A stretch of 64,000 nt of DNA from Prostheceraeus crozeri (Eukaryota > Platyhelminthes > Polycladida > Euryleptidae). A program made the translations under genes and the position numbers. Positions within the stretch are counted from its first letter, which is position 1, and the number at the start of each line of letters is the position of its first letter. The notes below the pieces were generated by a model. It was not told the origin of the DNA. It worked only from the letters and a program-made list of their open reading frames with translations, and did no database searches. Below, piece after piece: positions 9,419 through 33,796 of the stretch. The stretch spans positions 62,001 through 126,000 of the forward strand of contig CAJQUW010015614.1 of NCBI GenBank assembly GCA_907163375.1, written 5' to 3'.

Positions 9419-9517
9419 CACTCTAAACCAGCACCTCCTAAATCACACACTGAAGCGAGACACTATTCGTAACTAATAAAAAAATCCTAAAGCAAAGCGT
9501 TTTAGGAGGCTAGCGCA
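9419..9517. mobile_element. MITE, left part split by Polinton
   Basis: Starts CACTCTAAACCAGCACC after TG at 9417-9418 and matches the left half of the uninterrupted element at 38553-38773 up to CTAGCGCA, where the Polinton begins. Together with 33797-33916 it reconstitutes a ~219-bp non-autonomous element. Confidence 0.88.
9512..9517. repeat. Target site duplication, left (AGCGCA)
   Basis: AGCGCA at 9512-9517 equals 33791-33796. The related empty MITE at 38.6 kb has GCTAGCGCACTAG with a single AGCGCA, so the duplication came from the insertion. Confidence 0.97.
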
Positions 9518-10295: not shown

Positions 10296-10300
10296 CAAAA

Positions 10301-11920
10301 GTTAGAGCGGTTACAAGATTTTAGGTCGGAGCTCGCTCACCTGAAAAAATCCTAAGTGTCAGAGTGGCTTTGTATGGGTAAAATTTTGAAAATTTTCCAA
10401 AGTGTGGAATTTCGACCTAGGACCGCCACCAAAACATTTTTCATCAAATTTCACTGACCCCCCCCCCCGACAGCAATCTTCTAACTTTGGTTCTAGTGGA
10501 CGGATTTTGTCTTACAGCTACTCGTTTGAAAGAGGAGAAAAAACTGCTCGACAACATTTTTTGTTGCGAGTCAATCGGACCAGCCGTTCACAAGTTAGAG
10601 CGGTTACAAGATTTTAGGTCGGAGCTCGCTCACCTGAAAAAATCCTAAGTGTCAGAGTGGCTTTGTATGGGTAAAATTTTGAAAATTTTCCAAAGTGTTG
10701 AATTTCGACCTAGGACCGCCACCAAAACATTTTTCATCAAATTTCACTGACCCCCCCCCGACAGCAATCTTCTAACTTTGGTTCTAGTGGACGGATTTTG
10801 TCTTACAGCTACTCGTTTGAAAGAGGAGAAAAAACTGCTCGACAACATTTTTTGTTGCGAGTCAATCGGACCAGCCGTTCACAAGTTAGAGCGGTTACAA
10901 GATTTTAGGTCGGAGCTCGCTCACCTGAAAAAATCCTAAGTGTCAGAGTGGCTTTGTATGGGTAAAATTTTGAAAATTTTCCAAAGTGTGGAATTTCGAC
11001 CTAGGACCGCCACCAAAACATTTTTCATCAAATTTCACTGACCCCCCCCCCCGACAGCAATCTTCTAACTTTGGTTCTAGTGGACGGATTTTGTCTTAAA
11101 GCTACTCGTTTGAAAGAGGAGAAAAAACTGCTCGACAACATTTTTTGTTGCGAGTCAATCGGACCAGCCGTTCACAAGTTAGAGCGGTTACAAGATTTTA
11201 GGTCGGAGCTCGCTCACCTGAAAAAATCCTAAGTGTCAGAGTGGCTTTGTATGGGTAAAATTTTGAAAATTTTCCAAAGTGTGGAATTTCGACCTGGGAC
11301 CGTCACCAAAACATTTTTCATCAAATTTCACTGACCTCCCCCCCCCCGGACAGCTAGCTTCTATCTTGGCTTCTAGTGGACGGATTTTGTCGTGCAATAG
11401 CTCGTTTGAAAGCTAAGAGTGAGACAAATTCAGTGAAAGAATCGGCTTGTTCCTATCTGTCTTCGTTCAAAAGTTAGAGCGGTTACAAGATTTTAGGTCG
11501 GAGCTCGCTCACCTGAAAAAATCCTGTGTCAGAGTGACTTTGTATGGGTAAAATTTTGAAAATTTTCCAAAGTGTGGAATTTCGACCTGGGACCGTCACC
11601 AAAACATTTTTCATCAAATTTCACTGACCTCCCCCCCCCGGACAGCTAGCTTCTATCTTGGCTTCTAGTGGACGGATTTTGTCGTGCAATAGCTCGTTTG
11701 AAAGCTAAGAGTGAGACAAATTCAGTGAAAGAATCGGCTTGTTCCTATCTGTCTTCGTTCAAAAGTTAGAGCGGTTACAAGATTTTAGGTCGGAGCTCGC
11801 TCACCTGAAAAAATCCTAAGTGTCAGAGTGACTTTGTATGGGTAAAATTTTGAAAATTTTCCAAAGTGTGGAATTTCGACCTGGGACCGTCACCAAAACA
11901 TTTTTCATCAAATTTCTCTG
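10301..11920 (+). repeat. Subterminal ~292-bp tandem array (5.5 units)
   Basis: Units begin GTTAGAGCGGTTACAAG at about 10301, 10594, 10885, 11178, 11473 and 11765, giving periods of 291-295 bp. Each carries GAAAATTTTCCAAAGTGT, then a C-tract of 9-12 bases and GACAGC. Units come in two versions, one with a GAGGAGAAAAAACTGCTCG segment and one with the TIR-like GTGAGACAAATTCAGTG segment. The second version matches the inner TIR, so the array grew out of TIR sequence. No coding potential is evident; the 71-codon frame at 10402-10617 is a repeat artefact. Confidence 0.92.
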
Positions 11921-11925
11921 AACGA

Positions 11926-12056
11926 GGGGGGGGAGGTCAGTGAAATTTGATAAAAAATGTTTTGGTTAAGGTCCCAGGTTGAAATTCGGAAGTTTTAAAT
12001 TTTTCAAAATTTTCACCACACTGGAGCTCTCACACTTAGGAATTTTTTCACTTGTG
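11926..12056 (-). repeat. Inverted, diverged array fragment
   Basis: Starts with a G run, then GGTCAGTGAAATTTGAT and the reverse complement of the array unit with ~15-20% differences. Opposed to the last direct unit (11765-11920) it forms a foldback centred near 11921. Confidence 0.85.
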
Positions 12057-12222: not shown

Positions 12223-12229
12223 TATATAA
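12223..12229 (+). promoter_or_regulatory. TATA box, coiled-coil gene
   Basis: TATATAA in CATATATAAACCCCC, about 50 bases before a splice donor. A probable 5'-UTR intron runs from GTAAGC at 12272 to ATCTTACAG at 12800, bringing the promoter next to the ATG at 12819. Confidence 0.75.
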
Positions 12230-14061: not shown

Positions 14062-14094
14062 ATCTTTGCCCGCCTTCACCACCCCATCAATTTA

Positions 14095-14234
14095 CTCCCG
14101 AGAACGAACCATCGGCTCTCTTAAGGGCCACCTAGGGGCAAGACATGATAGAACCTCCACGCGGTTTGCCCTGGGCAGTCTTCGGACTGGCGAATACTAT
14201 CATTAAGTTGAATCTGCTATCAGTCAACTTGAAC
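14095..14234 (+). repeat. 140-bp module, copy 1
   Basis: First of three nearly identical 140-bp blocks (others at 14569-14708 and 15088-15227), starting CTCCCGAGAACGAACCATCG and ending CAGTCAACTTGAAC. It ends 20 bases before the TATA box of the 88-aa ORF. This copy has GCCACCTAGG where the others have GCCACCATGG. Confidence 0.95.
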
Positions 14235-14254
14235 GTTGCGTCGCGTTAGAGGGG

Positions 14255-14261
14255 TATATAA
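14255..14261 (+). promoter_or_regulatory. TATA box for 88-aa ORF
   Basis: TATATAA in GGGGTATATAAACC, 33 bases before the ATG at 14294 and just after a 140-bp module. Confidence 0.8.
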
Positions 14262-14293
14262 ACCACTGCCTCTCATTTCATTTCATTTCAATC

Positions 14294-14560
14294 ATGCAGA
14301 CGCCGAACAGTCAAGTCAGCTCTCCTCGCGGACCGCAGTTAAGGCCGCGAAATTTATTTGAGGAGTTCGTCAGGCTAGAGGAGCAAGACAGAGTCCACAA
14401 CAATCTTGCTCGGATTGGCAATCCGATGACAGCAACTGCTGTCAATCCAACGGAATGGCGCTACATTCCACTCTATACTCACATGCCAGTTAGTGTGGAA
14501 GTCGACAGTGCTACCAAAGAGAGAGTCTTTGACTCTCTCAGCAGAATTGGTAGGCTGTAG
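14294..14560 (+). CDS. Small Polinton protein, 88 aa, unknown
   Basis: The first ATG downstream of a strong TATA box opens an 88-codon frame. The protein has no recognised domain; it is rich in R/E/N, with LFEEFVRLEEQD and two copies of a short element (NLARIG near residue 37 and SLSRIG near residue 82). It is bracketed by 140-bp modules and followed within 10 bases by the second. Promoter context supports expression; coding is inferred. Confidence 0.6.
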   Translation: MQTPNSQVSSPRGPQLRPRNLFEEFVRLEEQDRVHNNLARIGNPMTATAVNPTEWRYIPLYTHMPVSVEVDSATKERVFDSLSRIGRL

Positions 14561-14568
14561 GATGACGA

Positions 14569-14708
14569 CTCCCGAGAACGAACCATCGGCTCTCTTAAGG
14601 GCCACCATGGGGCAAGACATGATAGAACCTCCTCGCGGTTTGCCCTGGGCAGTCTTCGGACTGGCGAATACTATCATTAAGTTGAATCTGCTATCAGTCA
14701 ACTTGAAC
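14569..14708 (+). repeat. 140-bp module, copy 2
   Basis: Nearly identical to the modules at 14095 and 15088. It contains GCCACCATGG, a strong Kozak context, opening a short frame that starts MGQDMIEPPRG and runs past the module to 14744. The TATA box of the 83-aa ORF lies 68 bases downstream. Confidence 0.95.
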
Positions 14709-14776
14709 ATTATGCAGTCGATTGCTATCCCTGAAGCATTCTGATTCGCTGTTGAGCAATTCATTGTTGAAAACCC

Positions 14777-14783
14777 TATATAA
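14777..14783 (+). promoter_or_regulatory. TATA box for 83-aa ORF
   Basis: TATATAA in CCCTATATAAGCC, 42 bases before the ATG at 14825. Confidence 0.78.
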
Positions 14784-14824
14784 GCCAGAAGATTGTAGCG
14801 CTTCTCATTCAATTTGAAGTCACG

Positions 14825-15076
14825 ATGGAAGCGACATCTGCCGACAATATTCCCGTCTTCACTGATGAAGACAACGGCATTCCCGAGTTCGTCATCCTCG
14901 ACGAGTGGGATGAGGATGAGAAGAAGGGGAAGATCAAGAGGATCGTTTGGACGGATGAGGTGTGGACTCCAAATACCACCCGCATCCGAAAGGTGCCAGA
15001 TGCACCACCACGGCTTAGGCGGTATAGGGTATACGAGAACCTAACCGTCATACCTATTGACTATTCAAGCCAATAG
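14825..15076 (+). CDS. Small acidic Polinton protein, 83 aa, unknown
   Basis: The first ATG after a TATA box opens an 83-codon frame. The N-terminal half is acidic (DEDNGIPEFVILDEWDEDEK) and the C-terminal half is basic and Pro/Arg-rich (RIRKVPDAPPRLRRYRVYEN). No family is recognised. A third 140-bp module begins 11 bases after the stop. Judged real mainly from promoter position and biased composition. Confidence 0.6.
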   Translation: MEATSADNIPVFTDEDNGIPEFVILDEWDEDEKKGKIKRIVWTDEVWTPNTTRIRKVPDAPPRLRRYRVYENLTVIPIDYSSQ

Positions 15077-15087
15077 TCATCTTGTTA

Positions 15088-15227
15088 CTCCCGAGAACGA
15101 ACCATCGGCTCTCTTAAGGGCCACCATGGGGCAAGACATGATAGAACCTCCTCGCGGTTTGCCCTGGGCAGTCTTCGGACTGGCGAATACTATCATTAAG
15201 TTGAATCTGCTATCAGTCAACTTGAAC
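15088..15227 (+). repeat. 140-bp module, copy 3
   Basis: Third copy, again with GCCACCATGG. Its short frame runs to 15278 with a tail different from that in copy 2. No TATA box follows within 150 bases. Confidence 0.95.
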
Positions 15228-15572
15228 GTTGCAAATGCAGTTCGGTGTAATACTTCCTTTCGACGGGCGTTCCTGTAAAGGGCGGCGGTGAAACCCGTAG
15301 CTATGCATACCGCAAGGGACATTCGGCAATGGTCAATCTTGTTAAACCTCTCTGCGTCATGTTTGCAAGTGATTGCCTCTGTCTCAACGTAGTATGCATT
15401 CGCGCCAGGGCGACATTTAGCCAACTGTCGAAGGTTGCCTAAAACTTTCCATTGCATACGTTATGAGAACCATGAGTTCTACCTGTCTCTATCAATGAGA
15501 CGAATTGATGAATGGAATGAAATGGGAGGACACTCACGCGCCACACGCAACATAACACACTTCTCTCTTCCG
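15228..15572. other. Polinton intergenic, nothing recognised
   Basis: No supported ORF. It separates the 140-bp modules from the 185-bp repeats. Confidence 0.6.
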
Positions 15573-16721: not shown

Positions 16722-19700
16722 ATGGTAAGTTGAAAATTTCCTCTCATCTCCCTCAAACGTGTGACTAATAGCATCTTCCTCAATTTCAGGCATCAACTTC
16801 ATCACCAACGCCCTCTCTTCTCGAGGAAAGTTTAGAGTTATTGAGTCAAGGTAGGTTGTAACACTACACTGAGGCTTGAACAGAGATGAAAGAATGATTT
16901 CTCTTTCAGGTGATGTGAGTTCCAGCTCAGGACTCTCGCGGCAAGGCAACGAGTGGGAATGTGCCGACTGCGGACATATGTTTACAAGGAAGCACAGTCT
17001 CCTTCGACACATCAAACAACGTGTGTGTCAACGCAAAGCGGTGTCAATCTCCGGAGGTGAAGTTGATTCTGACGATGACATCTCCTTTCCTTGCGATTTG
17101 TGCCCTCTTTCTTTTGATAGTCACTTTCAGCGATCTTCGCACAGACTTCAACACACGCATGCAAATGATCACTACACCAACGGTACCTCTACCATCTCCC
17201 TCATTAATGTTTCACATAATAATTTAGTACGCGACTACTGCATGGAGTCCAATACTCAAATTGTAGATTTTCCTGAGTGGCTCCTTCAAAATTCTAACAT
17301 TATCGAAGCGCTCTTCAATAATTTAGACAATTTTAGAATGAAGGCGCTCATCTACCTTAAACTAAAATATATTAAAATAGATTTTCAAACGGGTCAAGTG
17401 ACGGAGAGAATACAGTTTCATATTCCTTCCTCTTCCGCAACCGAAGTTGTAGACTGCGAGTCTTGGCTAAATTTTCACATTCAATGTTTAAAATCAAATG
17501 TAGATAAATTCAATCAACGCGACAGCGCTCTCATTTTTGATGGTGTGGACTCAGCCATATTCAAAATTTCCCTATTAGAAAGTCATGCAGCTCGAGGCAC
17601 ATTTAAACTTCCAAAAACGTTGTATAATAAGAAAGCTGTCATCAATGTTGATTGTAAATCACAGTGTTTCAAATATGCAGTCCTATCCATCCTTCACTAT
17701 AATGATATCAACGCGCATCGAGATCGCACCTATAGCTATAGACAGTGGGAGGATGAACTAGACTTTGAAGGTTGTGATAGTAACAACATGAAAATCAAAG
17801 ATGTAGAAACGTTCGAAAAACATAATAAGATTAAAATTGTCGTTCACGTGTGGGAGAAGGGGTTGAAGGGTGCCCGCTATAATTCACGTTCAACTTGTTA
17901 TGAACGTGTAGTCAACCTCTTATTAGTAAAACAAGATGATAGCGAGGAATGGCACTACTGTGGTATTCCCAAAATCTCTCGCTTGTACACTCACTTGGGG
18001 CACTCTAAAAGAGGTGAACATTTTGTATGCGACCGCTGCATCCGCTCATTTTGGAGTAAAGATAAATTTGAAACTCACTATGAATGGTGCAAGCGAGGTA
18101 AATTACAAATGGAACGCATGCCCAAAGATAAAATATTTTCACATAGGGATAATGGTGACGAATTAAGTCCCCTGCGTGTCATTTACGCAGACATAGAATG
18201 CTACATTGATGATATCATCCACAAGCCAGCAGCCATATCCTGCTATGAAGTATGGCATGACCACTTTAGGAATAGACAAAACAAAATGCATACTTGGCAA
18301 GGTGAAGATTGCATTTCAAAATTTCTAGAATTTCTCGATAAAGCTGCAAAATTTCAACAATCATATGATTCCCAATTGCAGCGTAAGTCACTACATATGT
18401 CAGATGAAGACAAACAAAAATTTGAAAGTTGCACATCCTGTCCTAAATGTCATAAAACGTTTGATGACGATAAAATTAAGAAAGTGCGTGATCATGATCA
18501 CATCACTGGTAAATTTAGAAACGCACTCTGCTCCAAATGTAACTTTTCACTTAGGTTGAGACGTCGTGTACTACCCGTCATTTTTCATAACTTTAAGGGC
18601 TATGACAGTCATATGCTCATAAAAGGAGGGTTGAGCCAGATGAAATCGTGGCAGTTTAATGTAATAGCACAAACGAGAGAAAAATTCATGGCAATGACAG
18701 CAAAAGTACCAGTAGATAAAACTAAAGAAAATAAGACAGTCTTCTTCGAAATAAAATTTTTAGATTCATTTCAATTCATGTCAGCGTCACTAGCTTCTCT
18801 CGTTCGTAATCTCAAGTTTCTTCCCCATAGTCAAACTTTGAAGAAACACTATCCAAACTTAACGGATGAAATAATCACTCGCAAAGGAGTCTTTCCTTAT
18901 GCGTATTTTAGCTCAATGTCTAAACTAAATGAAACAACCCTTCCTTCCATTGACAAATTCAAAAACGATTTGACGGGTGAAGATTGTCCAGTAGAGGACT
19001 ATGAACATGCTCAAGAGGCATGGTTAAAATTTAATTGTAAAACGTTTGGCGATTATATGATCGCTTACTTAGAATTAGATGTCATTTTGCTGGCTGATGT
19101 CTTTCAGGAGTTTCGACGAGTGGCATTAGAAGAAGACAAATTAGATCCTATCCACTTTGTCAGTCTACCAGCCATGTCCTTTAAATCAGCCTTTAAAATG
19201 ACTGGTGAGACCATTCATCTCTTACAAGACCCGGAGATGTATAATATATTTGAGCGCGGAATACGCGGTGGTCTCACATTTGTAAATAAACATCATATAA
19301 AATCTGAAACAGTAGGTGATGATCATATCCACCTAAAGTACTATGACCAAAATAATTTATATGGCAGTTCACTGTCTAAACCACTACCTCATTCCGAGTT
19401 TAGTTGGTTAAATCAAAATGAGCTTGAGTATTACTCCAACCCTTCAAACATACTGAATATTCCAGATGAAGGTGATTGGGGATATTATTTTGAAGTGGAT
19501 TTGATTTATCCAAATAGTATTAAAAATAAAACTGCTGATTTCCCACTCGCACCTGAATCTGGCGAAGTGACTGAAGATATGTTTTCACCATTCATGTCAC
19601 AATTTCATAATAACTTAACAGAGTGTGGACAGCCAAGGTACAAACCATGCCGCAAACTTTTACTCACCCAATATGATAAGAAAAATTATCTCGTACACTT

Positions 19701-20694
19701 CTGCATATTAAAATTCTATTTAGAAATGGGCATGCTTCTAAAGTCAGTTCACCGCATTATCAAATTTAGACAGAAAGCCTTCCTCAAACCCTACATAGAT
19801 AGTAACAGTCAAAAACGTGCACTCGCCCAAAATAATTTTGAAAAGGATTTTTATAAATATAAGAATAATAGTCTATTCGGAAAGACCATGGAGGATGTTA
19901 GAAAACGTATGAATTACAAACTAGTCGTTGATGAACAAAAATATCACAAATTGACCTCATCACCTCTTTTCATTGATAGAGACATCATCGATGAGGATCT
20001 TGTAGGTGTTAAAATGATTAAATCAGAAGTTGAGTTGTGCAAACCCATCTATATTGGGCAAGCCGTTTTAGATTATTCCAAGCTTGAAATGTATCAACTC
20101 TTCTACAAAATATTAAAACCATGCCCTCTCGTAAAAGAGGTTCGCTTGCTGGGTGGTGATACAGATAGTTTCTTTTTAGGAATTACCACTCAAAAAGATT
20201 TAAATTTTAATGAAGTAGGTAAGTCATTAGAAATATATTTCGATACATCTAACTACAATCCCACTCATCCACTCTATTCCATACAGAATAAAGCCAAACT
20301 TGGTTGTTTTAAGGATGAAACAGCAGGAAAGGAAATAGATGAAATGATTCTCCTCCGTCCTAAAATGTATTCCATGAAACTAAAAGAATGTGCAGATAGT
20401 ATTAAGCGTGCTAAAGGTATATCAAAATCCATTGTTCATAAAATGAAACATCGGTCCTATAAGAAGGCCTATAAAAATAAAACTATAACGTTTGTCAATA
20501 TGACAATCTTAAAATCTCAAGTTCATACTGTGAAAACGTACACGTTCAAGAAACGAGCACTTTCAGCATGGGAGGATAAGAGGTGTTGGATAGGACATAA
20601 CACATCTCTTCCACATGGACATCCTGACACAAACATACCTCCACCCAAAAGAATAAAACTCACGCTACCACATTCAGGAGATGTATTGACATAA
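16722..20694 (+). CDS. polB: Protein-primed DNA polymerase B (Polinton PolB), spliced
   Basis: Replicates the element from its ends by protein priming. Best read as exons 16722-16724, 16790-16850 and 16910-20694 (1282 aa): the ATG abuts GTAAGT, and two introns of 65 and 59 nt end in ATTTCAG and CTTTCAG. Splicing keeps the frame and removes the in-intron ATG at 16876. Two C2H2-like fingers lie at residues ~39-62 and ~88-112. An exonuclease domain follows with YADIECYID (D449/E451), an inserted CPKCHKTF...DHDHITGKFRN zinc region, FKGYDSHM (ExoII) and YLELDVILLAD (ExoIII). The polymerase motifs are DQNNLYG (from 834), KNNSLFG (1006-1012) and GGDTDSFF (DTDS 1105-1108). All catalytic residues are present and the frame is intact. 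Residues N-terminal to the exonuclease resemble the separate protein at 30709-31119. Confidence 0.96.
16725..16789 (+). other. PolB intron 1 (directly after ATG)
   Basis: GTAAGT at 16725-16730 to CAATTTCAG at 16789, 65 nt. The first coding exon contributes only the ATG. Confidence 0.82.
16851..16909 (+). other. PolB intron 2
   Basis: AAG|GTAGGT to TCTCTTTCAG at 16909, 59 nt. Removal joins a split Gly codon in frame. Confidence 0.82.
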
Positions 20695-20873: not shown

Positions 20874-22426
20874 TCACTTTGTTTTCCGAAACACTAAAGT
20901 TACGAGGGATTTAGTATCTTTCACATGGATACACTCTTGTAAACCATTGGTAATTTTGATAGCAATAGAGGGTATAGTTTGTTTGACGACGGGATGATAG
21001 AAAATAGATTCAAACATCTTCTCGACTATTCCATATGAAGCGTCTTTATCATGAATGAAATCACGTAAAATGTATTCTTTTTTCTCGCCAACAGAAATAG
21101 GTAAAATCAAATCACTTTGAATGTAAAGGTGTTGTTCATGTTTATCAAGTGTCATTGGTGTTTCTATACCAATCGTATGCGCAGCAGCAAACACAGTTTG
21201 TAGCATTGAAAAGCCAAAGAGTTTTTTTTCAAATTTTTACTCAATTGACATTGAATGTCATCACCCAGTTTCAGAACAACGCGTTGTTTTTCAATTGAAA
21301 ACGAAATGTGGTGTGTCTTTACATCATATTTACTTTTCATCACATGCTTCAACTTCTGTTGTATATAAGGATTTACTACATGAATGAAGCTTTCAACTGT
21401 ATGATATAGACGCGGCATTATATTGATAGCAACTTTAGATTCTTCATAAGACTGGTAAATTTTCTTGATGCGATCGCCATAGATGTCCACCCACCATTCA
21501 TCATTAACTGAATCAGCTTTAGTGTGATATTCATGAGAACCATACACCACACCGCTTCCAATAATAGGCGTATAATGTCTTACAAAATGACGCAAGGTTG
21601 GAGAGAAATAAACTGTAAGTTTGTCATTATATTTCTGAATAACCAACTTATTTTTGTCCGCCATAATTTTCTCTCCATACTTCTTACCCACAGTCTCATT
21701 CCATCGTTTTACTAACTCAATAAGTGATAAAGGTTGAACACCACGCTTTTTCAAAATGATGCGTTCTTCGCATTCTACAACATCTTCATCAAATATTTTA
21801 AATCTATAATGAAATTTGTTGATTCGAGTTGAATAAACTTTTTTAACATTTGCAGTAGCAATTGACGTTAGATGTAGTCCATGACCAAAACCAAGATGTG
21901 GATAGAATTCACTATCCAACCTCAGCGTAAGACCTTTAGTAAAAGAATGAAAGCGGAGGAACTGTCTCCCACTCCAATGATAGATAGTAAACTCATAAGC
22001 TTTCTGATTTTTATTCTTCATGATGGAAGTATTACCACTGTTGAATGCCTTAATAATTTTCTCATTCCCAAATGGCTCATAAGAATCTGATTTTATCTGA
22101 ATCCATTCATAGTTCCACTTTCCATCTGATGTTAAATTGTATGGGAACTGAAATGCATTATTCATCGTTATTCCATCATGGGTGCGAGGAGTCAATATCA
22201 TTTCTTCCAAATCATTCACATTCTGAATATTGCTATCATAGCAAATACTAGAAACGCCAACTTCCCATTCACCTTCTAAATGCAGTGGCCGATTTAATTC
22301 TACTCGATAGTCTGATGGTTTATTTTTGGGAAATTTATTCATAGAAGCATTACTGGGCAAGTAGATTAGAAACGAGTCCTTATTTTCACTTTCCATATTA
22401 TTCACATTGGAAAAATATATTAGCAT
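20874..22426 (-). CDS. Conserved Polinton virion-type protein, paralogue 1 (frame broken)
   Basis: The start at 22426 may instead be the ATG at 22396 (MESENKDSFLIYLPSNASMN). The N-terminal pattern, LPSNAS....F..N..S......L..P..L.G.WEVGV, is shared with the next gene at 23834 and, from memory, with a conserved Polinton protein thought to be a minor capsid, vertex or fibre component. The frame breaks in a T8 run (21222-21229; A8 on the coding strand): the upstream frame ends at 21164, while the remaining ~115 codons, ending FRKTK, continue in another frame to 20874. One base is missing from the homopolymer, by assembly error or mutation. Total about 515 codons. The role is inferred. Confidence 0.8.
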
Positions 22427-22435
22427 ACTTTTGCA

Positions 22436-23834
22436 TTAACTCTTCATTCGGAAATGGAGTGTAATACTTGTCACAGCATCTTTATGAAAAGGAATCAACG
22501 CACCAGCATCATCATAAATGGCAATATCAATTTGTGGGATGTAGTTTGATTTCAGCTTTGTATAATGCACTTTCTTGAAAGTATGCTCAGATAAAATACT
22601 GCAGCTTTTTGGCTGGTATGGTATCATTGCTAGCAATGGAGCTTCAACATCTCCCACACGTACATCTTCACCAATATTGGAATATATCTGAAAATAGTTA
22701 ATACGACGCGATAGCGACATGTCTGCGCTAGCTTTGGTTACAGTACCACTTTTAAAGATATTTTGATCAAAACCCAAAATGTCCATTAGAGTTTTATCCA
22801 TAATTAGTTCAATACCTTTTCCATTTATAGTGAGAGACAAAGTACCTTCTTTTTCAGAAAATGAAATATGTTGCTCATTAATCACTTCATTTAAATAATC
22901 TACAACCAATTTAACCGAAGTAATAATGCGAGGCATCAACACTCTTGTTTCATGTAAGAAACCACCAAAAGGCTCTACACACTTTCTGTATAAAGATACG
23001 GCCCATTCTGTATCAAATTGATTTGACCTTTCACATGGTAAATGTTGCATATCAGATTTTCCATGAACAGCTGCAGAACGATGTCGTAAGAACTGATGAA
23101 AATCTTTTGAACAAACTAATACTAGATCATCATCATTTAATTTGCTTATTGCAATATGATTAGATGATTTAATATAAGTCAATGTTGCCACTTGTTTGTC
23201 ATCAACTCGAAGGAGATAATTAAATTTCTTCAATAATGTTTCAGGAGTCATGTTTGTCTTTCTTGGCTTAATCACAATCTTCTTCACCAACGTCTTCTCA
23301 TTTCTTGGAATAAGATCTACATAATAAGCTTCCTCTCGATATATTAACTGTTTATGACCACTTATGTGGTAATTAACGTTAAAATTATCATAGCTTGTTA
23401 AGGCGCTAGCGAGGTAGCCTAAATCATTTCTTAAACTTGGACTTAAACCAACAATCCAATCTTTCTCAACTACATGATGTACATAATTATAATCATCATT
23501 GTGCGGAGTAAATTGGACAATATGTTTACACGCTTTATTCAAGAAATCATATATAAACTTTTTACATGATAAGAGATCTTTCTTTGGCCACTGTGGAATG
23601 TATACTCGGCACCCCTTTTCACATTGATAAGCAGCTGTACGCCTCATATTAATAGTCATCACCTCATGATCAAAAAGTATAGACACAGTTGCTATAAACA
23701 AGTTGAGTGACACCCACTTCCCAATTCCCATTTAGCTGTTGTGCATGATCGATGGGAGTAGAAAAGAGTGCGGCTCGATTGCTAGTAAATCTCTTTGTAG
23801 CCGCATTGCTAAGCAAAATATGATAAAACGACAT
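22436..23834 (-). CDS. Conserved Polinton virion-type protein, paralogue 2 (frame broken)
   Basis: Starts MSFYHILLSNAATKRFTSNR and includes LNGNWEVGVTQLVY, aligning with paralogue 1 (22426-20874). The first ~54 codons are in one frame; an A5 run at 23672-23676 (T5 on the coding strand) carries one base too many, and the rest continues in another frame to 22436, ending ITLHFRMKS. Paralogue 1 ends in a comparable LVTLVFRKTK. Tandem duplication of this gene is clear from the shared ends and size (~465 codons). It lies 9 bases upstream of paralogue 1, so the two were probably co-transcribed. Confidence 0.8.
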
Positions 23835-23869
23835 TTTTATATTGCTAATCTGCAACTTTGCATAACATC

Positions 23870-24226
23870 ATGAAGACTTGGATTTTGGACTCTCTACAAT
23901 ATATCAGAGTTGATCGTGATGGAAACGTACATTTCAAAAATTCTCATGGTCATACATCAAGAGGAATTACATTAACATGGCGACAATTTGTCAACCTCAA
24001 TGATATCATGAGGGATTTGGAATATTTTTAAACATTAAGATTCATCTCCTTGGGTGATCAAGTTTGGCTTCAACATTACAGAAATGAAATTCAAATCTAC
24101 CATTCTCATTCCGCAAACTGTTTCTCATTTCGCAAATACAATTGGGAGAAGTATAGAAGATACATACATCGCTCCATCATGACATTTATTCGTCGTGAGT
24201 TCATCGCCCTACTATGCAAATCTTAA
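23870..24226 (+). pseudogene. Degenerate upstream copy of the 24249 gene
   Basis: The ATG at 23870 opens MKTWILDSLQYIRVDRDGNV, similar along its length to the protein starting at 24249 (MSWKLDSLQRIETDHDRNVY). A TAA at 24029-24031 interrupts after 53 codons where the other copy has TAT (Tyr). The same frame then stays open to a stop at 24224-24226 with matching residues (WEKYRRYIHRSI versus WEKYKRKVHRSI). It is a tandem duplicate with a single nonsense change. Confidence 0.8.
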
Positions 24227-24248: not shown

Positions 24249-24899
24249 ATGAGTTGGAAATTAGATTCCCTACAACGTATTGAAACGGATCATGATCGAA
24301 ACGTCTATTTCAAAGATTCAACTGGAAATGTGAGAAGAGAGTTTGTTTTATCTTATCGTCATTTTCAATCTCTACATCATATCATGAAGGACTTGAAATA
24401 CTTCTATATGAAAAGACATTCACGTATTGGAAATCGCATCTGGCTGCGCGTCAACAATCGGCGAATTCAACTCTATCATTCCCAACTTCATACTAACTTC
24501 ACATTTCATCAAGGTAGTTGGGAAAAGTATAAAAGGAAGGTACATCGCTCAATTTACTCATTCTTTCATCATGAAGCGCCATCGCTACACCATCGTCAAC
24601 ATTCTCCGTCGCTTCAGACTCTACACCAAAATCGATCTCACAACATTACGCCAACAGCTTCCAAACAGCAAGTATTACCCGGGCCGTCCTCAAATGTTAG
24701 TGGTGAAGATGAACAATTCACGGAATCTTCAACTCTTCCCAAATGGGACTGTACAGATTCTCGGCGCCCTTTCTCATTCATCGGCGCAGTCAATGCGCTT
24801 AGAGTTACAGAGACTACTACGTCGGATATGGAAGAGGGAGAGGTGTGTGATGTCGAATCTGACTGTGGACAATATGGTGATCTCTACTCAATTGAGTGA
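24249..24899 (+). CDS. Polinton duplicated small protein, possibly PC4-like
   Basis: The intact member of a tandem pair (see 23870-24226). The conserved part is the first ~112 residues: LDSLQ.I..D.D.NV.FK...G...R...L..R.F..L..IM.DL, then IWL......I.LYHS.....F.F....WEKY...VHRSI. These two halves look alike, and each has the strand-rich "V.F/I.L ... W/F" rhythm of PC4-type transcription cofactors, but that comparison is by eye only. After residue ~112 the frame overlaps the TBP-like gene in another frame and is Ser/Thr/Pro-rich, possibly a chance extension. Position beside a TBP-like gene makes a transcription role attractive but unproven. Confidence 0.6.
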   Translation: MSWKLDSLQRIETDHDRNVYFKDSTGNVRREFVLSYRHFQSLHHIMKDLKYFYMKRHSRIGNRIWLRVNNRRIQLYHSQLHTNFTFHQGSWEKYKRKVHRSIYSFFHHEAPSLHHRQHSPSLQTLHQNRSHNITPTASKQQVLPGPSSNVSGEDEQFTESSTLPKWDCTDSRRPFSFIGAVNALRVTETTTSDMEEGEVCDVESDCGQYGDLYSIE

Positions 24900-25116
24900 C
24901 AGTCTATCATTTTTGAAGATTCGTACCAGCAGTTACAGTTTGTGTTATGAACCCGAACTTTTTCCTGCAGCTCTCATTAGTTGTTGGTTGCCTGTGCATG
25001 TGGCAATCTTTCATAATAGTAAAGTGATCATTACTGGACTAAAATCTCATGAACAAGCAAATATGATCCTAGACTATCTCATTGAGTATGTACGTACCCA
25101 GCGGATTGTAAAATAA
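24571..25116 (+). CDS. TBP-like (TATA-binding-protein fold) Polinton protein
   Basis: From the ATG at 24571 (MKRHRYTIVNILRRF) the frame encodes 181 aa covering both direct repeats of the TBP core. Repeat 1 has KIDLTTLR...N..YYPGR, LVVKM, then LFPNGTVQILGALS followed by an Arg/Leu helix. Repeat 2 has DNMV.ST, YEPELFPAALISCWLP, VAIFHNSKVIITGLKS and a final helix. YEPELFP and the [I/L]F...K.[V/I].TG.K pattern are hallmark TBP positions. The DNA-intercalating phenylalanines are only partly kept. The open frame extends upstream to 24427, overlapping the previous gene; the chosen start avoids that. The likely role is selecting the element's own TATA promoters. Confidence 0.85.
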   Translation: MKRHRYTIVNILRRFRLYTKIDLTTLRQQLPNSKYYPGRPQMLVVKMNNSRNLQLFPNGTVQILGALSHSSAQSMRLELQRLLRRIWKRERCVMSNLTVDNMVISTQLSDSLSFLKIRTSSYSLCYEPELFPAALISCWLPVHVAIFHNSKVIITGLKSHEQANMILDYLIEYVRTQRIVK

Positions 25117-25147
25117 AAAACAATTTTTCCAACATGATGTTTTTATT
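25112..25147. terminator. Convergent poly(A) signals, TBP-like and protease genes
   Basis: AATAAA on the plus strand at 25112-25117 overlaps the TBP-like stop codon, and TTTATT at 25142-25147 gives AATAAA on the minus strand, overlapping the protease stop. The two transcript ends overlap by about 30 bases. Confidence 0.7.
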
Positions 25148-25604
25148 TCAAATCATGATAGAACTTACAAATCATTTTTTCATTAGAGGATGGATTACAT
25201 GAAAAGTTTTGAATAACAGATGCAAATCGAGATACATGTAAACGTTTTAAGATGAAGTACAGTACAAAAGCACCACACGTTGATGAAAGTGGATGTTGTA
25301 GTATGCGTTCATTTCGCTGATATTGACGCGTATGTTTTCTCAACCACTGCTGTGTTGGTATATTTGGAGGTTGAGCAAGAGAGTCAAATAGTTCACCACG
25401 TCGGTCTTCTCCAATAAAGATCGCTTTCCAATGCTCACCGCCTAAATTCTGTGAATGAGTGTTTAGCACAATAAAGATGGGATAGTGATTTACTGCAGGT
25501 GGTAAGGTATCGAGTGAATAGACATTATCGAAAGCTTTCAACGTCGCTTCGTCTGCATTACGCTGCACTTTAGTCTTAATATCGTCAGCAGTCAACCAAC
25601 TCAT
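25143..25604 (-). CDS. Adenain-like cysteine protease (capsid maturation)
   Basis: A 153-aa C5-type protease that would process virion proteins. Catalytic pattern: His58 in GGEHW, Asp74 in LFDSL, Gln103 in ILQHPLSSTCG and Cys110 in STCGAF, the adenovirus-protease order with Q a few residues before C. The length suits Polinton proteases. The ATG overlaps the capsid stop as TAATG (25602-25606), suggesting translation coupled to the capsid gene. Frame intact. Confidence 0.92.
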   Translation of the reverse strand: MSWLTADDIKTKVQRNADEATLKAFDNVYSLDTLPPAVNHYPIFIVLNTHSQNLGGEHWKAIFIGEDRRGELFDSLAQPPNIPTQQWLRKHTRQYQRNERILQHPLSSTCGAFVLYFILKRLHVSRFASVIQNFSCNPSSNEKMICKFYHDLK

Positions 25605-26870
25605 TAACGATTATACTGAAGAATCACGTCACGATACTTTGTAATTTCAATATTTGAATCGAAGACTGCATAAATTAATACATTGATCGTCTCAGGTAGT
25701 GTTCTTTTGAACGTCAAATCCAAACGAATATTATGAGGCACGTTCGCTTGACGATAGGGTGCACTAATATCGCTGTCAGCAGTCAAATCAAATGCATAAA
25801 TAGTATATCCACTCTTAAACTCTTTCATAGTCAGTCCGTTGGTATCATCCGTATTGTAAAAGCCAAAGACATCCATAAAATCAACATAACTGCGCATAAA
25901 TTGATCCGAAGCAAAATCTGGTTTGTAGGGTGGACCAGGATGACTCACACCATTAACACGTAAAGCAATTTCACTTAACTGATTGTGTTTAAAATTGAAA
26001 GGATTCTTCTTTATATTACCATTAAATGCATCATTTTCAACCATTGCCACCATGAGGAGCTTCGGTGCTTCCGATGGAAAGAGGCCATCTTTCATGAAAC
26101 TCTTTTGATCTTTCGGAATTGTAAAGGTGAGAAGCTTTGTATGCTGAACGGGGTAAATGGCATTTTGGCGGTTAAGACCTTCAGCATGCCCTCTAATGAC
26201 ACTTGGATTCGGTACTACTCGACGAATGTAAAGTGCAATATCTTCCACATGAATTCTAAAATTGTCAACTTTAGCAAATGCATTCAGCGCAAATTCAGGC
26301 TTATTCAATGTCAGCTTGAGTCGCATGCTGGTATTACAGAGTAAAAACTTTGACTGTCTAAAGAAGTCTAAATTCAGCGGACCATATAGCTGACATACTC
26401 TACTATCTTTAATCATAGCAGATCGCTTTACAAAGCCACTGTTTGTTTCAACATCAAATTTTCCTGCTTCATCTCTGTACCATCCCATGGCTTCCATATG
26501 ACTTTTTTGTGCTGCTGGATGAAACTGTGATACATGATTGAAATATGATTTATAGGGATAATCGCTTTGACCACCTTCCACCTGCTGCTCTCCAATCGTT
26601 AGAGAAACATCGCGAAGTAATGTAGTCAATGGTAAATTGTTCAGTCCAACTTTATGTGCATCGTCAATCTGCTTGCTGAATTCTAAACCTCAAATCAAGC
26701 ATCGCATAACTCAAATCTATGTAGTCATCACTACCACCAGGAATAACAAATTCAATGGGGCCAGCATTCTCAGCTGTTCGAGGATGATAATCTACAATAC
26801 TTGAACTAAGAATATCTGTCTGTATGGCTTGTTGATCGAACAAACAAAAACCGGAAGTTTTACACTCCAT
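25604..26870 (-). CDS. Major capsid protein, double jelly-roll type (frame broken)
   Basis: Forms the icosahedral shell. The N-terminal 68 codons (26870-26664; FCLFDQQAIQTDIL, EFVIPGGSDDYIDLSYAML) are in one frame and the remaining ~345 in another. One extra base near 26661-26667 separates them. The long part has the conserved Polinton capsid stretches VEDIALYIRRVVPNPS, YPVQHTKLLTFTIP, VENDAFNGNIKKNPFNFKH, GYTIYAFDLTAD and LPETINVLIYAVFDSNIEI, which match invertebrate proteins labelled F54H12.2-like. Total about 420 codons. It is preceded 2 bases upstream by the core-like gene and followed by the protease with a TAATG overlap. Confidence 0.92.
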
Positions 26871-27334: not shown

Positions 27335-27368
27335 ACCCTAAACATTGTTAGTTACAACTTTGCATGAA

Positions 27369-28635
27369 TCACTGTCGATCACTTAGATGAAAGATGTCGG
27401 CACGACGCATCCAAGAGTTCATACTTGAAGGATAACCAGTCCATTTAACAAGACACCATTCTTCACCTTGCCGTTTTTTACATCGAATGATTGACTCTAC
27501 CAAATATGTTTCACTTTCAGTGACTACCTCAATCTCATCGCGGTAAAAGCTACCCTCAATTTCTTCATTATCGTAATCTTTCAACTTGTAGGTGGTCGGA
27601 GAGTCTTTTTGATTAATCCTTGATACTGTAAATACCTCCTCTGTCCAATTCGGGAGGTACCCTTTAGCAAAAACACTTTTCACTTTTGAGATACGAACTT
27701 TATCGCCAATTTTCACATCACTTTTCACATGAGTGCGTTTACGTTGGAATGATTCGCGCACTTTATCTACATTGTCAGCATTTACATCTACTGGTCTGAG
27801 TCCAATAGAACGATGGATAGAGTGATTGTAGGCATGGAGTGTATCTTGTAGAACCTTTGTCCAATTTTGTGTCAAGTTGGCAGTAAAATGTCGCCACAAA
27901 CGATTTTTTAATATGCGATTAAAACGTTCAACGAGTGCAGCTTTATAAGCGCTCTTTACACTAAACAACTCAATGTCATGCCTCTCAAATAATCTTGTCA
28001 CATGCTGATTTTCAAACTCTTTTCCTTGATCACTCTGAATTCTTTTTGGAATGCGACCTTCTCGAAAAATTGTTTGGAATGCTTTTGCTACTCCTTTCCC
28101 TTCTTTAGTTTTTAAAGGTTGAGCCCACGCATAACGCGAGAAAATATCAATGACGGTTAAAATAAAATTATTGCCCGAGTTATGTTTTGAAATGGAGGCA
28201 ACATCGCACAAATCTGCTTGCCACTGTTCATCGATGTCATGAACAATATAATGGCGGGTGCGGTACTTCTTTTTCGCTTGTTTGTGGAGTGTATAGGTAG
28301 CCTGACCCTTTAACCATCGTTTCACTTGTGATTGTGGAAGACCACTCGCTTTTGATAATTTCTTGATAGATGCAAATCCTGCCGGATGTTTTTACATCAT
28401 AATAGATTGACTTCAAACGTTCAGTCGATGACGGCTGACTCTTTTTCCTCCTTCTCATCTTTTTTTTTCTTGCCTTTCTACATTTACAACAACTGCAGCA
28501 TTTAGCTTTAGCGGTTTTGCGATCGTGTTCACATTGCTTAGGGGTTTCATTATGAGAGCTGGCGCAGCAAGTGCAAGTGACAACGACATTCACCTCTGGC
28601 GGCTCATTACATGGCAAGCAACACATCTGCTTCAT
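27369..28635 (-). CDS. Retroviral-type integrase with chromodomain (N-terminal frame break)
   Basis: Inserts the element and generates the 6-bp duplication. The 318-aa downstream frame (from 28325) has Asp38 (WQADLCDV), Asp99 (QSDQGKEF) and Glu133 (ALVERFNR), 33 residues between the last two. A chromodomain follows at ~268-312 (VESIIRCKKR, WCLVKWTGYPSSMNSW). Upstream, a frame starting at 28635 supplies a Cys-rich stretch (CTCCASSHN, CCSCCKCRK) and Lys/Arg-rich sequence up to LKSIYYDVK. The two frames meet at a T5 run (28389-28393) with one base too many. All three catalytic residues are intact. Confidence 0.93.
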
Positions 28636-28636
28636 A

Positions 28637-29329
28637 TTAATAGTCTGAGAACATGTATTTCCTAGGAGGAGCTGTTTTACGTTTTCCTTTTACCAGTTTT
28701 AGTGGCGATACAGATCTACGTCGAGTTCTTCCCCTTGTTTGCTTAGTGAGTGTGGGAGGGGATGTAGCAGGTGACGTCTTAAACCAATTTGTTGGCATTT
28801 TCATCGCCTGAAGCATTGGAGTAGTAGCCACTGTTGAATCAAGTTCTTTCAATGTCTCATTATTTAAAGCAAATTTTGGCACATTATGCTTTTTCAATAG
28901 TTTAAGAAAGTATGACCAACCAGGTGGAACATAGCCCTGACGGCGCTTTCTACGTGTCGCATACTGAATCAAGTCTTCATAACGTGAAGCATCAATCACT
29001 TTATTTTCATCTGTAATGATTTCTCCTCTATCATTTACATTGAGATGGGGTTCAATACTGTTGAAAAGAGATATGGCATGTGCGCGAGATGCTAAAGGTG
29101 TAGCAGTCGATACAGAGTCACGCATCTTATTCTTCAAGTTTTTCAATTGCTCAACAGTTTCCGATTGTAATAATACAGCACGATGTGGATCTTTGATGTG
29201 AACATTTTGCTGATAATCTATTTCTTTCCTATACATTTGATTTACAAGAGGTTGCTTTACTTGCTGCATGGCAGTCAATTGTACATATTCATCCTGAGGA
29301 ATAACAATCATGCGAGAATAAGAACTCAT
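28637..29329 (-). CDS. Conserved Polinton virion-type protein, 230 aa
   Basis: Begins SSYSRMIVIPQDEYVQL, a start I associate with a conserved but uncharacterised Polinton protein found beside the ATPase. The central part has predicted helices and a basic stretch ATRRKRRQGYVPPGWSYFLK; the C-terminus is Arg/Lys/Ser/Pro-rich (RGRTRRRSVSPLKL). This suits a nucleic-acid-contacting virion protein. The ATG overlaps the ATPase stop as ATGA (29326-29329). Frame intact. Confidence 0.75.
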   Translation of the reverse strand: MSSYSRMIVIPQDEYVQLTAMQQVKQPLVNQMYRKEIDYQQNVHIKDPHRAVLLQSETVEQLKNLKNKMRDSVSTATPLASRAHAISLFNSIEPHLNVNDRGEIITDENKVIDASRYEDLIQYATRRKRRQGYVPPGWSYFLKLLKKHNVPKFALNNETLKELDSTVATTPMLQAMKMPTNWFKTSPATSPPTLTKQTRGRTRRRSVSPLKLVKGKRKTAPPRKYMFSDY

Positions 29330-29991
29330 AGTTTGTAGATAATCATGGGAGTTTTCAAAATATCACTTCGAAATCTAAATTCTTCCGGACACTCTTGCGT
29401 AAAGTCAATGAATAAGTAACCGTATGGTTTTTCAGTAGCTGCTTGAAAAATTTCAATTAAAGCTTTTGATCCTCTGGGTGCAACTTGTCGCGCTAAAATT
29501 TCAAATTGACTTTTATCTCGCGGATTCTTGAAAATAGCATAATAGTGTGTATTCAGGTTTCGTGTACGAGCTTCTTTTCCATCAGGAAACAAATTTTGTG
29601 TAATATAGATGATAAAACACCTTTTATGGTGTGCTGCGCGAGTGAACATATCTGTAACATCTTTTGAATTCTTACTTTCTTTTAATAAATCATCCAATAC
29701 AACAACATCATTAGACTGAAGTTTATCCACTGGAATAATTCCTTCATGTCGAATAAAGTTGCGACTTTGCAATTCCTGAAACAGCGACGGTTGATAAATA
29801 CCATAACACCAAATCACTCGATTGATAGGTTCCTTAAACAACTCCCTTCTTTTATCCAATAAATTCAGCGTGAAAACAGTTTTACCTGCATGAGATGGAC
29901 CTGATACAGTCAGAACTTTATCACATTGAAGTCTGAAATCCATTTTATTACTTTGAGACTCAACATTTGCATAATTAACGCTTAGAGCCAA
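29326..29991 (-). CDS. Genome-packaging ATPase (A32/FtsK-HerA type)
   Basis: Pumps the genome into capsids. The 221-aa protein has Walker A GPSHAGKT (31-38), Walker B DVVVLDD (95-101) and an arginine-containing ITQNLFPDGKEARTRNL segment typical of A32-like ATPases of Polintons, virophages and adintoviruses. Frame intact. It overlaps the upstream basic protein gene by 17 nt and the downstream gene by ATGA. Confidence 0.94.
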   Translation of the reverse strand: MALSVNYANVESQSNKMDFRLQCDKVLTVSGPSHAGKTVFTLNLLDKRRELFKEPINRVIWCYGIYQPSLFQELQSRNFIRHEGIIPVDKLQSNDVVVLDDLLKESKNSKDVTDMFTRAAHHKRCFIIYITQNLFPDGKEARTRNLNTHYYAIFKNPRDKSQFEILARQVAPRGSKALIEIFQAATEKPYGYLFIDFTQECPEEFRFRSDILKTPMIIYKL

Positions 29992-30331: not shown

Positions 30332-30382
30332 TTTCCGTGTTAGTCTTTGCTAAAACCTATCTTTACCACATTTGCATAGGTA

Positions 30383-32038: not shown

Positions 32039-32725
32039 TTATGTCGTCCACGTTGGGTGGTTTCGGAATATATAGGATGGATTCCATATGCATGGAGAGA
32101 GAGGCTATTTTATTATCCTTGTGTCGACCATAATATAGCCCATTCACTTTGAAAAGGATATCCCAAGTACCTTCTCCGAGCTCATCACATCTGATGGGTA
32201 TTGAATGATCTCCCTCCTTCTTATAGTAAGTACACCAATGTGATACCGGTAGGCAAATGTGATTACCATCCCAAATCTTTCTATAGGGAGTATCCTTGTC
32301 ATCTCTCGCCTTCCACTCTTGAGCAAGAGGAGTAGGAATGTCCATATTTAATGTCACGTACTCCTCAATAATATTAAGTTGGTGGCGAATGTACGGACTC
32401 ACGGGGATCAGTATGTAGTCCCCATACTGATTGTGCATTATCTTGACATCCGTGGAAGGGAGCATTCCCGTTTGGAGTACTACGCTATGATCATCATAAC
32501 GCAAGGCTTGTTTAAATTTACGCTGTAGCGGTGTAGGATTATGTACCTTGGATGTTTCTTCCACTGGCCTCAGTTGTAGATGATCTGACCGTAGCGAACC
32601 TTGTAACGTTTGACCGCCATTTTGTCCTACTAGTGCAGCAGATGGAGTAGATGCCTGAAAATGAAAAAAGATTGTATTAAGTTTACGTTCAAGGGAGGAG
32701 AGGGAGGGAAGTAGCGACTTACCAT
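31950..32725 (-). CDS. Spliced early-type Polinton protein, 235 aa, unknown
   Basis: Exons 32725-32723 (ATG only) and 32654-31950. The ATG is followed at once by GTAAGT (32722 downward), the intron is 68 nt and ends TTTTCATTTTCAG, and exon 2 begins GCATCTACTCC, as exon 2 of PolB begins GCATCAACTTC. The product starts MASTPSAALVGQNGG and is in frame with the long ORF, which otherwise lacks an ATG (its first plausible start is GTG at 32564). No domain is recognised: it has several Trp and His (VSHWCTYYKKEGDHSIPIRC) and a Lys/Ser-rich tail (KRKSEKNATSKRKSKK), a likely nuclear signal. The promoter copies that of PolB. Confidence 0.78.
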
Positions 32726-32765
32726 TTTAGTTGGATAATAGAACAGGGAACTAGAGAGAGAAAAT

Positions 32766-32871
32766 GTGCGTCCGTCACTCGTGTGATTCAACGATGGAAT
32801 GATTCTCACTGTGGAAGGCTCGCTATTTATAAAGAAATGCTTGATTCTCATTGGATGATGATCCTCATTGG
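32766..32871 (-). promoter_or_regulatory. Right-end early promoter (twin of PolB promoter)
   Basis: On the minus strand: CCAAT boxes at 32867-32871 and 32850-32854, TATAAATA at 32831-32824, and the leader motif at 32789-32766 with core AGTGACGGACGCAC followed by a pyrimidine run. All spacings equal those at 16539-16644. The gene starts at 32725. Confidence 0.8.
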
Positions 32872-32884
32872 ACAATAACATCAA

Positions 32885-33015
32885 GTTGATTCCAAATCTG
32901 GCATCCGTTTACCAATCCGATAGTTCGTTTTGAAGCTACAGCCCAAAACGTCCCAAATTCTAACTCTGTCGTTTTTCACCAATGTCCCAAAATCTTAAAT
33001 GGCGTCTCACATGTA
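32885..33015. repeat. Diverged TIR-type unit inside the right TIR
   Basis: Contains AAATCTGGCATCCGTTTACC and AACTCTGTCGTTTTTC, a mutated extra copy of the ~90-base unit found twice in each TIR. Confidence 0.7.
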
Positions 33016-33790
33016 AACGAAGGCAGATACGAACAAGCCGATTCTTTCACTGAATTTGTCTCACTCTTAGCTTTCAAACGAGCTATCGCACGACAAAATC
33101 CGTCCACTGGAAGCAAGCTGTCCAGGGGGGGGGACGTCAGCCGAAAATTTTTTCTCTCCGATTTCGCTGGAAACATCCTTCCTAACCCAAAATTTCACGT
33201 AGATTCCGAATCTGGCCTCCGTTTTCTCATCCGATGCTTCGTTTGGGCGCTACACACCAAAACGTCCCAAATTCTAACTCTGTCGTTTTTCGAAAAATGT
33301 TGAAAATTTTTTCTCACCGATTGCCTTGAAACTCACCCTACCGATGCAGAATTTCACGCTGAATCCGAATCTGACCTCCGTTTTCTCATCCGACCACTCC
33401 TTCCACTCGAAACAACCCATTTTACAACCCAACATTCAGCAGATTGCACCAAAAACATCACACACTATAGCCTCAAGACTAATCCTGGCGGTCGCCCACG
33501 TCAACCTAGACGGTCGCCCACGTCAACCAGGCGGTCGGACCAACTCACCCGAGTCTCACACTCTGTCGTTGCAGAGGGGGGGGGACGACGTCAGCGAACA
33601 TGTTGTGAACGTGGACCCACCCGGCCGGCACACCACGACAGACCACAACCTCTGTCGTTCCAGAGGGGGGGGGACTCAGACACGAAGCACCACGGCGGCC
33701 GACCACGACACTCTGCCGTGCCAGAGGGGGGGGGGACGCAGCGATGGCCGCCATCTTGCGCGGTCCAGAAGTGGAGTTTTGCTTACTACT
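33016..33790 (-). repeat. Polinton right terminal inverted repeat
   Basis: Inverse of 9518-10295, differing mainly in homopolymer lengths of the G/C tracts. The inner limit is where the match is lost near 33016. A third, diverged copy of the inner ~90-base unit continues into 32885-32980. Confidence 0.95.
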
Positions 33791-33796
33791 AGCGCA
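33791..33796. repeat. Target site duplication, right (AGCGCA)
   Basis: Exact match to 9512-9517, directly after the terminal GCTTACTACT of the element. Confidence 0.97.

Follow-up and report, generated by a model that had tools for sequence, protein, structure and literature searches.

A gene for a two-lobed relative of the TATA-binding protein (TBP) lies inside a Polinton-type element of Prostheceraeus crozeri, and our sequence comparisons suggest that the element has a partly private system for starting transcription. We put the probability at roughly 60% that the protein, judged by its sequence and modelled structure, is a functional, element-specific TBP, which would start transcription on element promoters together with host TFIIB and RNA polymerase II (Pol II) while being free of the host's N-lobe regulators. 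The window is the whole stretch of DNA that was analysed (64,000 nt; contig CAJQUW010015614.1, positions 62,001 to 126,000), and window coordinates are used throughout. A sequence-only reading of the window had recognised both TBP repeats in a 181-aa frame and had assigned the gene to a Polinton. Every motif it quoted is present and PF00352, the PDB and AlphaFold agree with it on the fold, while the assignment to a Polinton is supported by the protein family, profile searches, structure prediction, the ends of the element and a second element family in the same genome.

Identity and predicted fold of the element TBP

24571–25116, plus strand: TBP gene encoding 181 aa with both lobes (Pfam, PDB profile, AlphaFold and alignment)

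Two stretches of the 181-aa frame matched the Pfam family PF00352 (E=7.6e-21; 74.2 bits, the cut-off being 22.9). TBPs in the PDB were matched by the single sequence from E=2.8e-14 using phmmer, and from E=9.8e-25 by a profile built on 61 family sequences. NCBIfam TBP models gave up to 70 bits, far under their cut-offs (181 and more), which places the element TBP among TBP relatives that these models do not cover. The AlphaFold model, for which the alignment of 61 family sequences was the input, had a mean pLDDT of 95.2 and a pTM of 0.85, and it predicts the strand-helix-strands-helix order of TBP in each lobe, repeated twice; the first helix of lobe 2 is shorter than four residues in the AlphaFold element list. 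Comparison of the product with PF00352 and by AlphaFold was the check that the sequence-only reading had proposed, and both point to the frame encoding a two-lobed TBP relative.

The element in the window

The ends of the element and its target site duplication (TSD) were read from the sequence, along with the terminal inverted repeats (TIRs) and the following genes.

9518–33790: Polinton-type element, 24,273 bp, 5'-AGTAGTAAGC...GCTTACTACT-3' (inverted repeats, ends and TSD read)
9512–9517: left copy of the TSD, AGCGCA (read from sequence)
33791–33796: right copy of the TSD, AGCGCA (read from sequence)
9518–10325: left TIR, inner edge approximate (inverted-repeat pairs I1, I2 and I5)
32986–33790: right TIR, inner edge approximate (inverted-repeat pairs I1, I2 and I5)
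16876–20694, plus strand: large PolB-type protein with an N-terminal zinc finger (below cut-off) and an endonuclease VII-like segment (Endonuclease_7, above cut-off)
21164–22396, minus strand: virion-type protein 1 (LPSNAS motif)
22436–23834, minus strand: virion-type protein 2, frame broken in the window copy (presumed likeness)
25143–25604, minus strand: adenovirus/Ulp1-type (C48/C5-type) cysteine protease, weak (Peptidase_C48 E=0.0012, 19.2 bits, cut-off 20.7)
25604–26870, minus strand: capsid-type gene, 5' part in a different frame in the window copy (presumed likeness)
27369–28325, minus strand: integrase with chromodomain (PF00665 E=8.5e-11; PF00385 E=1.5e-06)
29326–29943, minus strand: packaging-type ATPase (A32-type), weak (Pox_A32 E=0.022, below cut-off)

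The TIRs, the 6-bp TSD and the integrase are shared with Polintons/Mavericks, and weak or presumed likeness would extend this to PolB, the protease, the ATPase and the virion-type genes. From its motifs we take the 16876–20694 protein to be a DNA polymerase B of the protein-primed type, and no PolB family match was found for it in Pfam or the PDB. The LPSNAS motif of virion-type protein 1 is presumably typical of Polintons, the 22436–23834 product is one that we take to be virion-type, and we presume a likeness of the 25604–26870 product to the Polinton F54H12.2 group; the capsid-type ORF at 25604–26629 had no Pfam match. Among 20 other copies examined, the frame of virion-type protein 2 runs without a stop until the 3.5-kb stretch ends in all 20, and the protease frame is unbroken in 18. 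No TFIIB or viral RNA polymerase was recognised in the 18 of 29 ORFs scanned against Pfam.

A second copy of the window-type element is flanked by the TSD AATGCG. In a third copy (G000:C788:1353622-1377647, approximate) the termini are intact and the TSD is inexact (TTCATC vs TCTATC); this copy is perhaps a recombinant.

Relatives, copy number and origin

One database search gave 60 relatives of the element TBP at E ≤ 1e-3 among 99 candidate proteins. A profile search over 1952 candidates gave 383 proteins at E ≤ 1e-6; the best 120 of these all had E ≤ 8.6e-59, and the remaining 263 may include cellular TBPs. The sequence set used below consists of 134 database relatives and the window protein (135 in total). 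The database relatives were read as proteins, and the longest contigs among the matches listed are under 25 kb. No TBP relatives were found in the viral contig and genome contig collections, the phage collection had no tblastn match to the TBP or to part of PolB, and a TBP match was absent from the stretches read of L001–L008 (which bear other ATPases) and L009–L011.

In the 2.05-Gb genome (14,165 contigs), at least 150 places hold a TBP identical over 181 aa, and all 150 scored matches are stop-free; this number is a lower bound, the first pass having given 11,886 candidates. Twenty of these loci (G000, L012–L031) are 99.1–99.6% identical to the window over 3.5 kb, suggesting a very recent burst of the element. 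These same-family places differ hardly at all and were picked in order of score, for which reason their intact frames say little about selection. When a distant relative (P0024) was used as the query, at least another 150 places were found, with all 150 scored matches 50–53% identical to P0024. TBPs of this second family are 43–45% identical to those of the window family, and 146 of its 150 scored places are stop-free, though ranking by score favours intact frames here too.

A tree was built from 50 family members and five reference TBPs, which include TBPL1 and do not include the host's own TBP, and the family stands alone on its side of a 100/100 branch. The phylogeny, of the kind proposed in the sequence-only reading, separates the family from the reference TBPs. 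TBPL1/TLF, also a divergent TBP paralogue, groups with the reference TBPs on a long branch, and its place is unsure. TBP genes are duplicated in animals, and the element TBP could be a recently captured host paralogue travelling as a functionless passenger. We find this hardly credible given the family's own side of the 100/100 branch (in a tree without the host's TBP), its 134 database relatives and its presence in two element families of one genome. A captured host gene would be expected to nest within animal TBPs, which the tree does not show.

Conserved C-lobe and rebuilt N-lobe

The 135 sequences were aligned with yeast and Methanocaldococcus TBP, and residues are given in yeast numbering with the single-residue roles known from TBP structures. 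The element TBP has the same predicted two-lobed saddle and order of strands and helices as cellular TBP (PF00352; yeast, archaeal). On the DNA face of the C-lobe it also has N159 (135/135), V161 (135/135), F190 (134/135), F207 (135/135) and T215 (134/135) in common with cellular TBP, the exception being L205, which is A in 114/135. The TFIIB contacts are kept, with E186 in 132/135 (D in 3), E188 in 135/135 and L189 in 124/135. The DNA face of the N-lobe departs from cellular TBP: F99 is replaced by P in 129/135, L114 by Q in 131, V122 by Q in all 135 and T124 by L in 118, while F116 is kept in every sequence. Three of the canonical four intercalating phenylalanines are thus retained, a set of four being a trait of canonical TBP and not of the PF00352 family as such. 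Basic residues on the N-lobe surface are likewise altered or reversed relative to cellular TBP, K138 being E in 105 (D in 9), K133 being E in 84 and K127 occurring in none, and E93 is K in 111/135. The window protein carries E in place of K138 and yet its N-lobe helix is basic (net +5), unlike most of the others displayed. In all 135 sequences the C-lobe is nearer to yeast TBP than the N-lobe is, with mean identities of about 29% and 15%, respectively.

The N-lobe surface serves TFIIA, TAF1, Mot1 and Brf1 according to excerpts of PMC7221094, which uses its own numbering. Because the surface for TFIIA, TAF1, Mot1/BTAF1, NC2 and Brf1 is altered in the element TBP, charge reversals included, escape from host control would be expected. 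The element TBP would bind and bend element promoter DNA through a canonical C-lobe and a rebuilt N-lobe, and the altered DNA face of the latter would be expected to move the preferred site away from TATAWAW. Host TFIIB could then dock on the kept C-lobe glutamates, and host Pol II would be recruited. As described in excerpts of PMC7221094, the TFIIB glutamates of giant-virus TBPs are often altered and a viral TFIIB often accompanies these TBPs, and no poxvirus TFIIB was found; because these glutamates are often lost there and both are kept here, host TFIIB is indicated. We infer the expression of the element TBP, its DNA and TFIIB binding, its timing and its target promoters from sequence.

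A kept TFIIB surface on the C-lobe and a changed regulator surface would also suit a protein that shuts off the host, by titrating host TFIIB or by sitting on host promoters, and so weakens host transcription or the antiviral response. This seems very unlikely, as the N-lobe DNA face is unlike that of a host-type TBP and such a gene at 300 or more chromosomal places would presumably be costly unless silent. With its TFIIB contacts kept and its N-lobe rebuilt, the family can be regarded as a natural experiment on the roles of TBP surfaces.

A second element family with the TBP gene

The gene content of the second family was read on both sides in two copies (L056–L060 and L062). PolB is 58% identical to that of the window over 1248 aa in one copy, and 63% over 946 aa plus 42% over 302 aa in the other. 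Both copies hold relatives of o31119, o31737 and o32564, and one holds a relative of o12819. No capsid-type, virion-type, protease, ATPase or integrase relatives were found inside the second-family elements when 1312 six-frame segments at least 30 aa long, from nine stretches, were compared using blastp and phmmer. For these absences tblastn is insufficient, the o31119 relative in L062 having been found by blastp/phmmer only. The sole bounded second-family element (G000:C952:521291-538154; L058–L060) is 16,864 bp long with inverted repeats of about 1 kb, has the TSD TTTGTG on both sides and ends in the same terminal AGTAGTAAGC as the window element. Together with the window family, these copies show that two or more Polinton-type families in this genome carry the TBP gene, and from the two copies read, the second family might be a satellite, a non-autonomous candidate using the integrase and capsid of the window family.

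A PolB (30% identical to that of the window) and an ATPase match (27%) lie in L061 (G000:C952:546700-553000), at least 8.5 kb outside the bounded element. By sequence they appear to be a third, more distant Polinton-like piece separate from the second-family element.

The genes retained in the second family, the TBP with PolB-type and accessory genes where capsid, protease, ATPase and integrase go undetected, would fit a replication or mobilisation accessory that bends the element ends and aids the start of PolB or mobilisation, and has no role in transcription. We consider this unlikely. The TFIIB glutamates (132 plus 3 D at one position, 135 of 135 at the other) are hard to explain without TFIIB, and PolB is broken, into three and two frames, in the two second-family copies examined while the TBP is unbroken in both. 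The latter contrast, set beside the stop-free TBP frames of the two families (150/150 and 146/150), also favours a functional element-specific TBP.

Small upstream genes and the promoter of the TBP gene

Two small genes precede the TBP gene on the same strand, and the core promoter of the TBP gene lies within the end of the second.

23870–24226, plus strand: tandem paralogue of the 24249 small gene, internal stop in the window copy (sequence comparison)
24249–24570, plus strand: small gene adjoining TBP, first ~107 aa of a 216-aa frame that enters TBP (two database relatives; second family)
24528–24535, plus strand: TATAAAAG, TATA box at -43 relative to the TBP ATG (sequence; conserved in both families)
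24558–24563, plus strand: TCATTC, initiator-like, its A 32 nt past the TATA T, at -11 relative to ATG (sequence; both families)

The first ~107 aa of the 24249 frame have two database relatives, the 118-aa paralogue at 23870 is unbroken in 20/20 other copies examined, and the last part of a 24249-gene homologue is recognisable directly before TBP in the second element family too. The 24249 gene and TBP are therefore overlapping neighbours. The sequence-only reading had suggested looking for the same pair of neighbours in other Polintons, and the second family of this genome provides it. It had also considered that the overlapping 24249 frame might be the conserved one and the TBP frame not. 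The first ~107 aa are indeed a separate conserved gene, but this frame is not conserved in place of the TBP frame, which is kept in both element families. The small protein has a weak and non-significant likeness to PC4 (hhalign P=0.09 against PC4) that found no support in Pfam or the PDB, and its structure model is poor (pLDDT 46.6; strands then helix), leaving PC4-like identity as a lead only.

TATAAAAG at -43 and TCATTY at -11 are found in 20/20 other same-family copies examined and in 8/10 second-family loci, the other two loci being unread by the pattern. The core promoter sequence is thus conserved in two families whose TBPs are only 43–45% identical. The upstream frame was long enough for comparison in 22 database relatives; of these, 15 carry I-K/N at 14 codons ahead of M and 16 carry H at four codons ahead of it, a spacing that is compatible with TATAAA and CAY at a fixed distance. 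In P0018 and P0006 the I-K/N is at 13 codons, probably by chance in P0006, whose M is not the aligned start, and P0074 has T instead of I, which goes against the TATA reading. Since the TATA stretch also encodes WEKYK (YK) of the upstream gene, coding could explain part of its conservation. The element TBP gene would be transcribed by host Pol II from this canonical TATA and initiator promoter of its own, and such a promoter makes it probably an early gene.

A candidate motif before other genes

ATGCAAA occurs nine times in the window element, and 5/5 minus-strand and 1/4 plus-strand sites are 29–46 nt before an ATG, the minus-strand ones preceding virion-type, packaging or other genes.

30371–30377, minus strand: ATGCAAA, 46 nt before ATG at 30331 (motif scan)
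29966–29972, minus strand: ATGCAAA, 29 nt before the ATPase ATG at 29943 (motif scan)
27359–27365, minus strand: ATGCAAA, 38 nt before ATG at 27327 (motif scan)
23857–23863, minus strand: ATGCAAA, 29 nt before ATG at 23834 (motif scan)
22430–22436, minus strand: ATGCAAA, 40 nt before ATG at 22396 (motif scan)
24214–24220, plus strand: ATGCAAA, 35 nt before ATG at 24249, the small upstream gene (motif scan)

It is possible that the element TBP acts in a late phase and that ATGCAAA (TATGCAAAT), before virion and packaging genes, serves it as a variant TATA box, with the N-lobe glutamines accepting G:C pairs. This would be a counterpart of the herpesvirus TATT system, in which BcRF1 binds TATT late promoters (excerpts of PMC4893493), and the element TBP would prefer TATGCAAA over TATAAA. 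The five minus-strand sites speak for this reading, and so do two of our gene lists. With curated gene starts, 0/1000 random sets were as good as ATGCAAA, although three of these starts were chosen with the motif already known. For a gene list made by rule, 1–16/500 random sets equalled the best k-mer using the window starts, and 0–1/500 did so when one start was taken from other copies. No significance was reached with all 27 ORFs called mechanically, some of them spurious: ATGCAA(A) came top at 60 and 80 nt, yet 94–278/400 random sets were equal, and at 150 nt it came top only as a 6-mer, with 191/400 equal. In one copy of the capsid-less, TBP-bearing second family, the inspected gene starts also have no such motif ahead of them, and the few sites found in this family are elsewhere or within genes. 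A TBP that occurs there with no detectable capsid genes and no ATGCAAA upstream leaves a role limited to late virion genes unsupported in that family. In addition, ATGCAAAT is the octamer of POU proteins, and a host factor may read it. We see late-phase reading of the motif as a minority possibility, and treat a link between the TBP and ATGCAAA as a testable lead and nothing more.

A rather doubtful extension would be a two-stage programme, in which host TBP reads the TATA and initiator of the TBP gene and the element TBP, its N-lobe lined with glutamines, then turns to another box, TATGCAAAT in the capsid-bearing family, working with host TFIIB and Pol II while escaping host control; the capsid-less second family would be a satellite of the capsid-bearing one. 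The uses offered in the sequence-only reading, transcription separate from that of the host or a late class of genes, can both be considered possibilities for a functional element-specific TBP.

Comparison with known systems

Giant viruses with a TBP often also carry a viral RNA polymerase. The TBP-like proteins of giant viruses and poxviruses resemble the element TBP in being virus-encoded and in having lost the N-lobe regulator signature (excerpts of PMC7221094), whereas the element TBP keeps the TFIIB contacts that giant-virus TBPs often lack and sits in a Polinton. The herpesvirus proteins BcRF1, ORF24 and UL87 are also virus-encoded TBP relatives using host Pol II (PMC4893493, PMC4922670), with a six-protein viral complex on TATT boxes as the feature of these late factors (excerpts of PMC4893493). 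Viral TBPs are therefore already known from giant viruses, poxviruses and herpesviruses (excerpts of PMC7221094 and PMC4893493). In the literature searched, which mostly excluded subscription journals, we came across no Polinton-encoded TBP, and the words TATA and TBP were absent from the Polinton, Maverick, adintovirus and related papers searched by word. Of the papers where such terms meet, PMC10675990 describes TATA-binding proteins in elements without Polinton genes, the co-mention in PMC11464507 concerns a giant virus and that in PMC7786948 concerns host TBP; a mirusvirus paper is also among the co-mentions (PMC10132985).

A small DNA element with its own TBP and apparently host TFIIB and Pol II would be intermediate between nuclear viruses relying entirely on host machinery and giant viruses supplying all of their own. 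The element TBP could also provide a handle on Polinton transcription, through a core-promoter code that would differ from that of the host and that can be predicted and tested. We know of no account of how Polintons are transcribed.

Other TATA boxes and repeats in the element

The five TATA boxes noted in the sequence-only reading do exist, as TATATAA at 12223, 14255, 14777 and 16579 on the plus strand and TATAAATA at 32831 on the minus strand. All are canonical boxes, for which host TBP is a more likely reader than the element TBP; the element TBP gene itself has a canonical TATA box.

Several smaller features were seen in the same regions. Just inside the left element end, 10356–11933 holds six direct copies with a spacing of about 293 bp. 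A 155-bp repeat is present three times in 14085–15232, and the TATATAA at 14255 and 14777 are within 70 bp after two of its copies. At 32660–32840, TATAAATA precedes what looks like a short first exon with its intron (ATG, then GTAAGT ... TTTCAG), ahead of the 31950–32564 gene.
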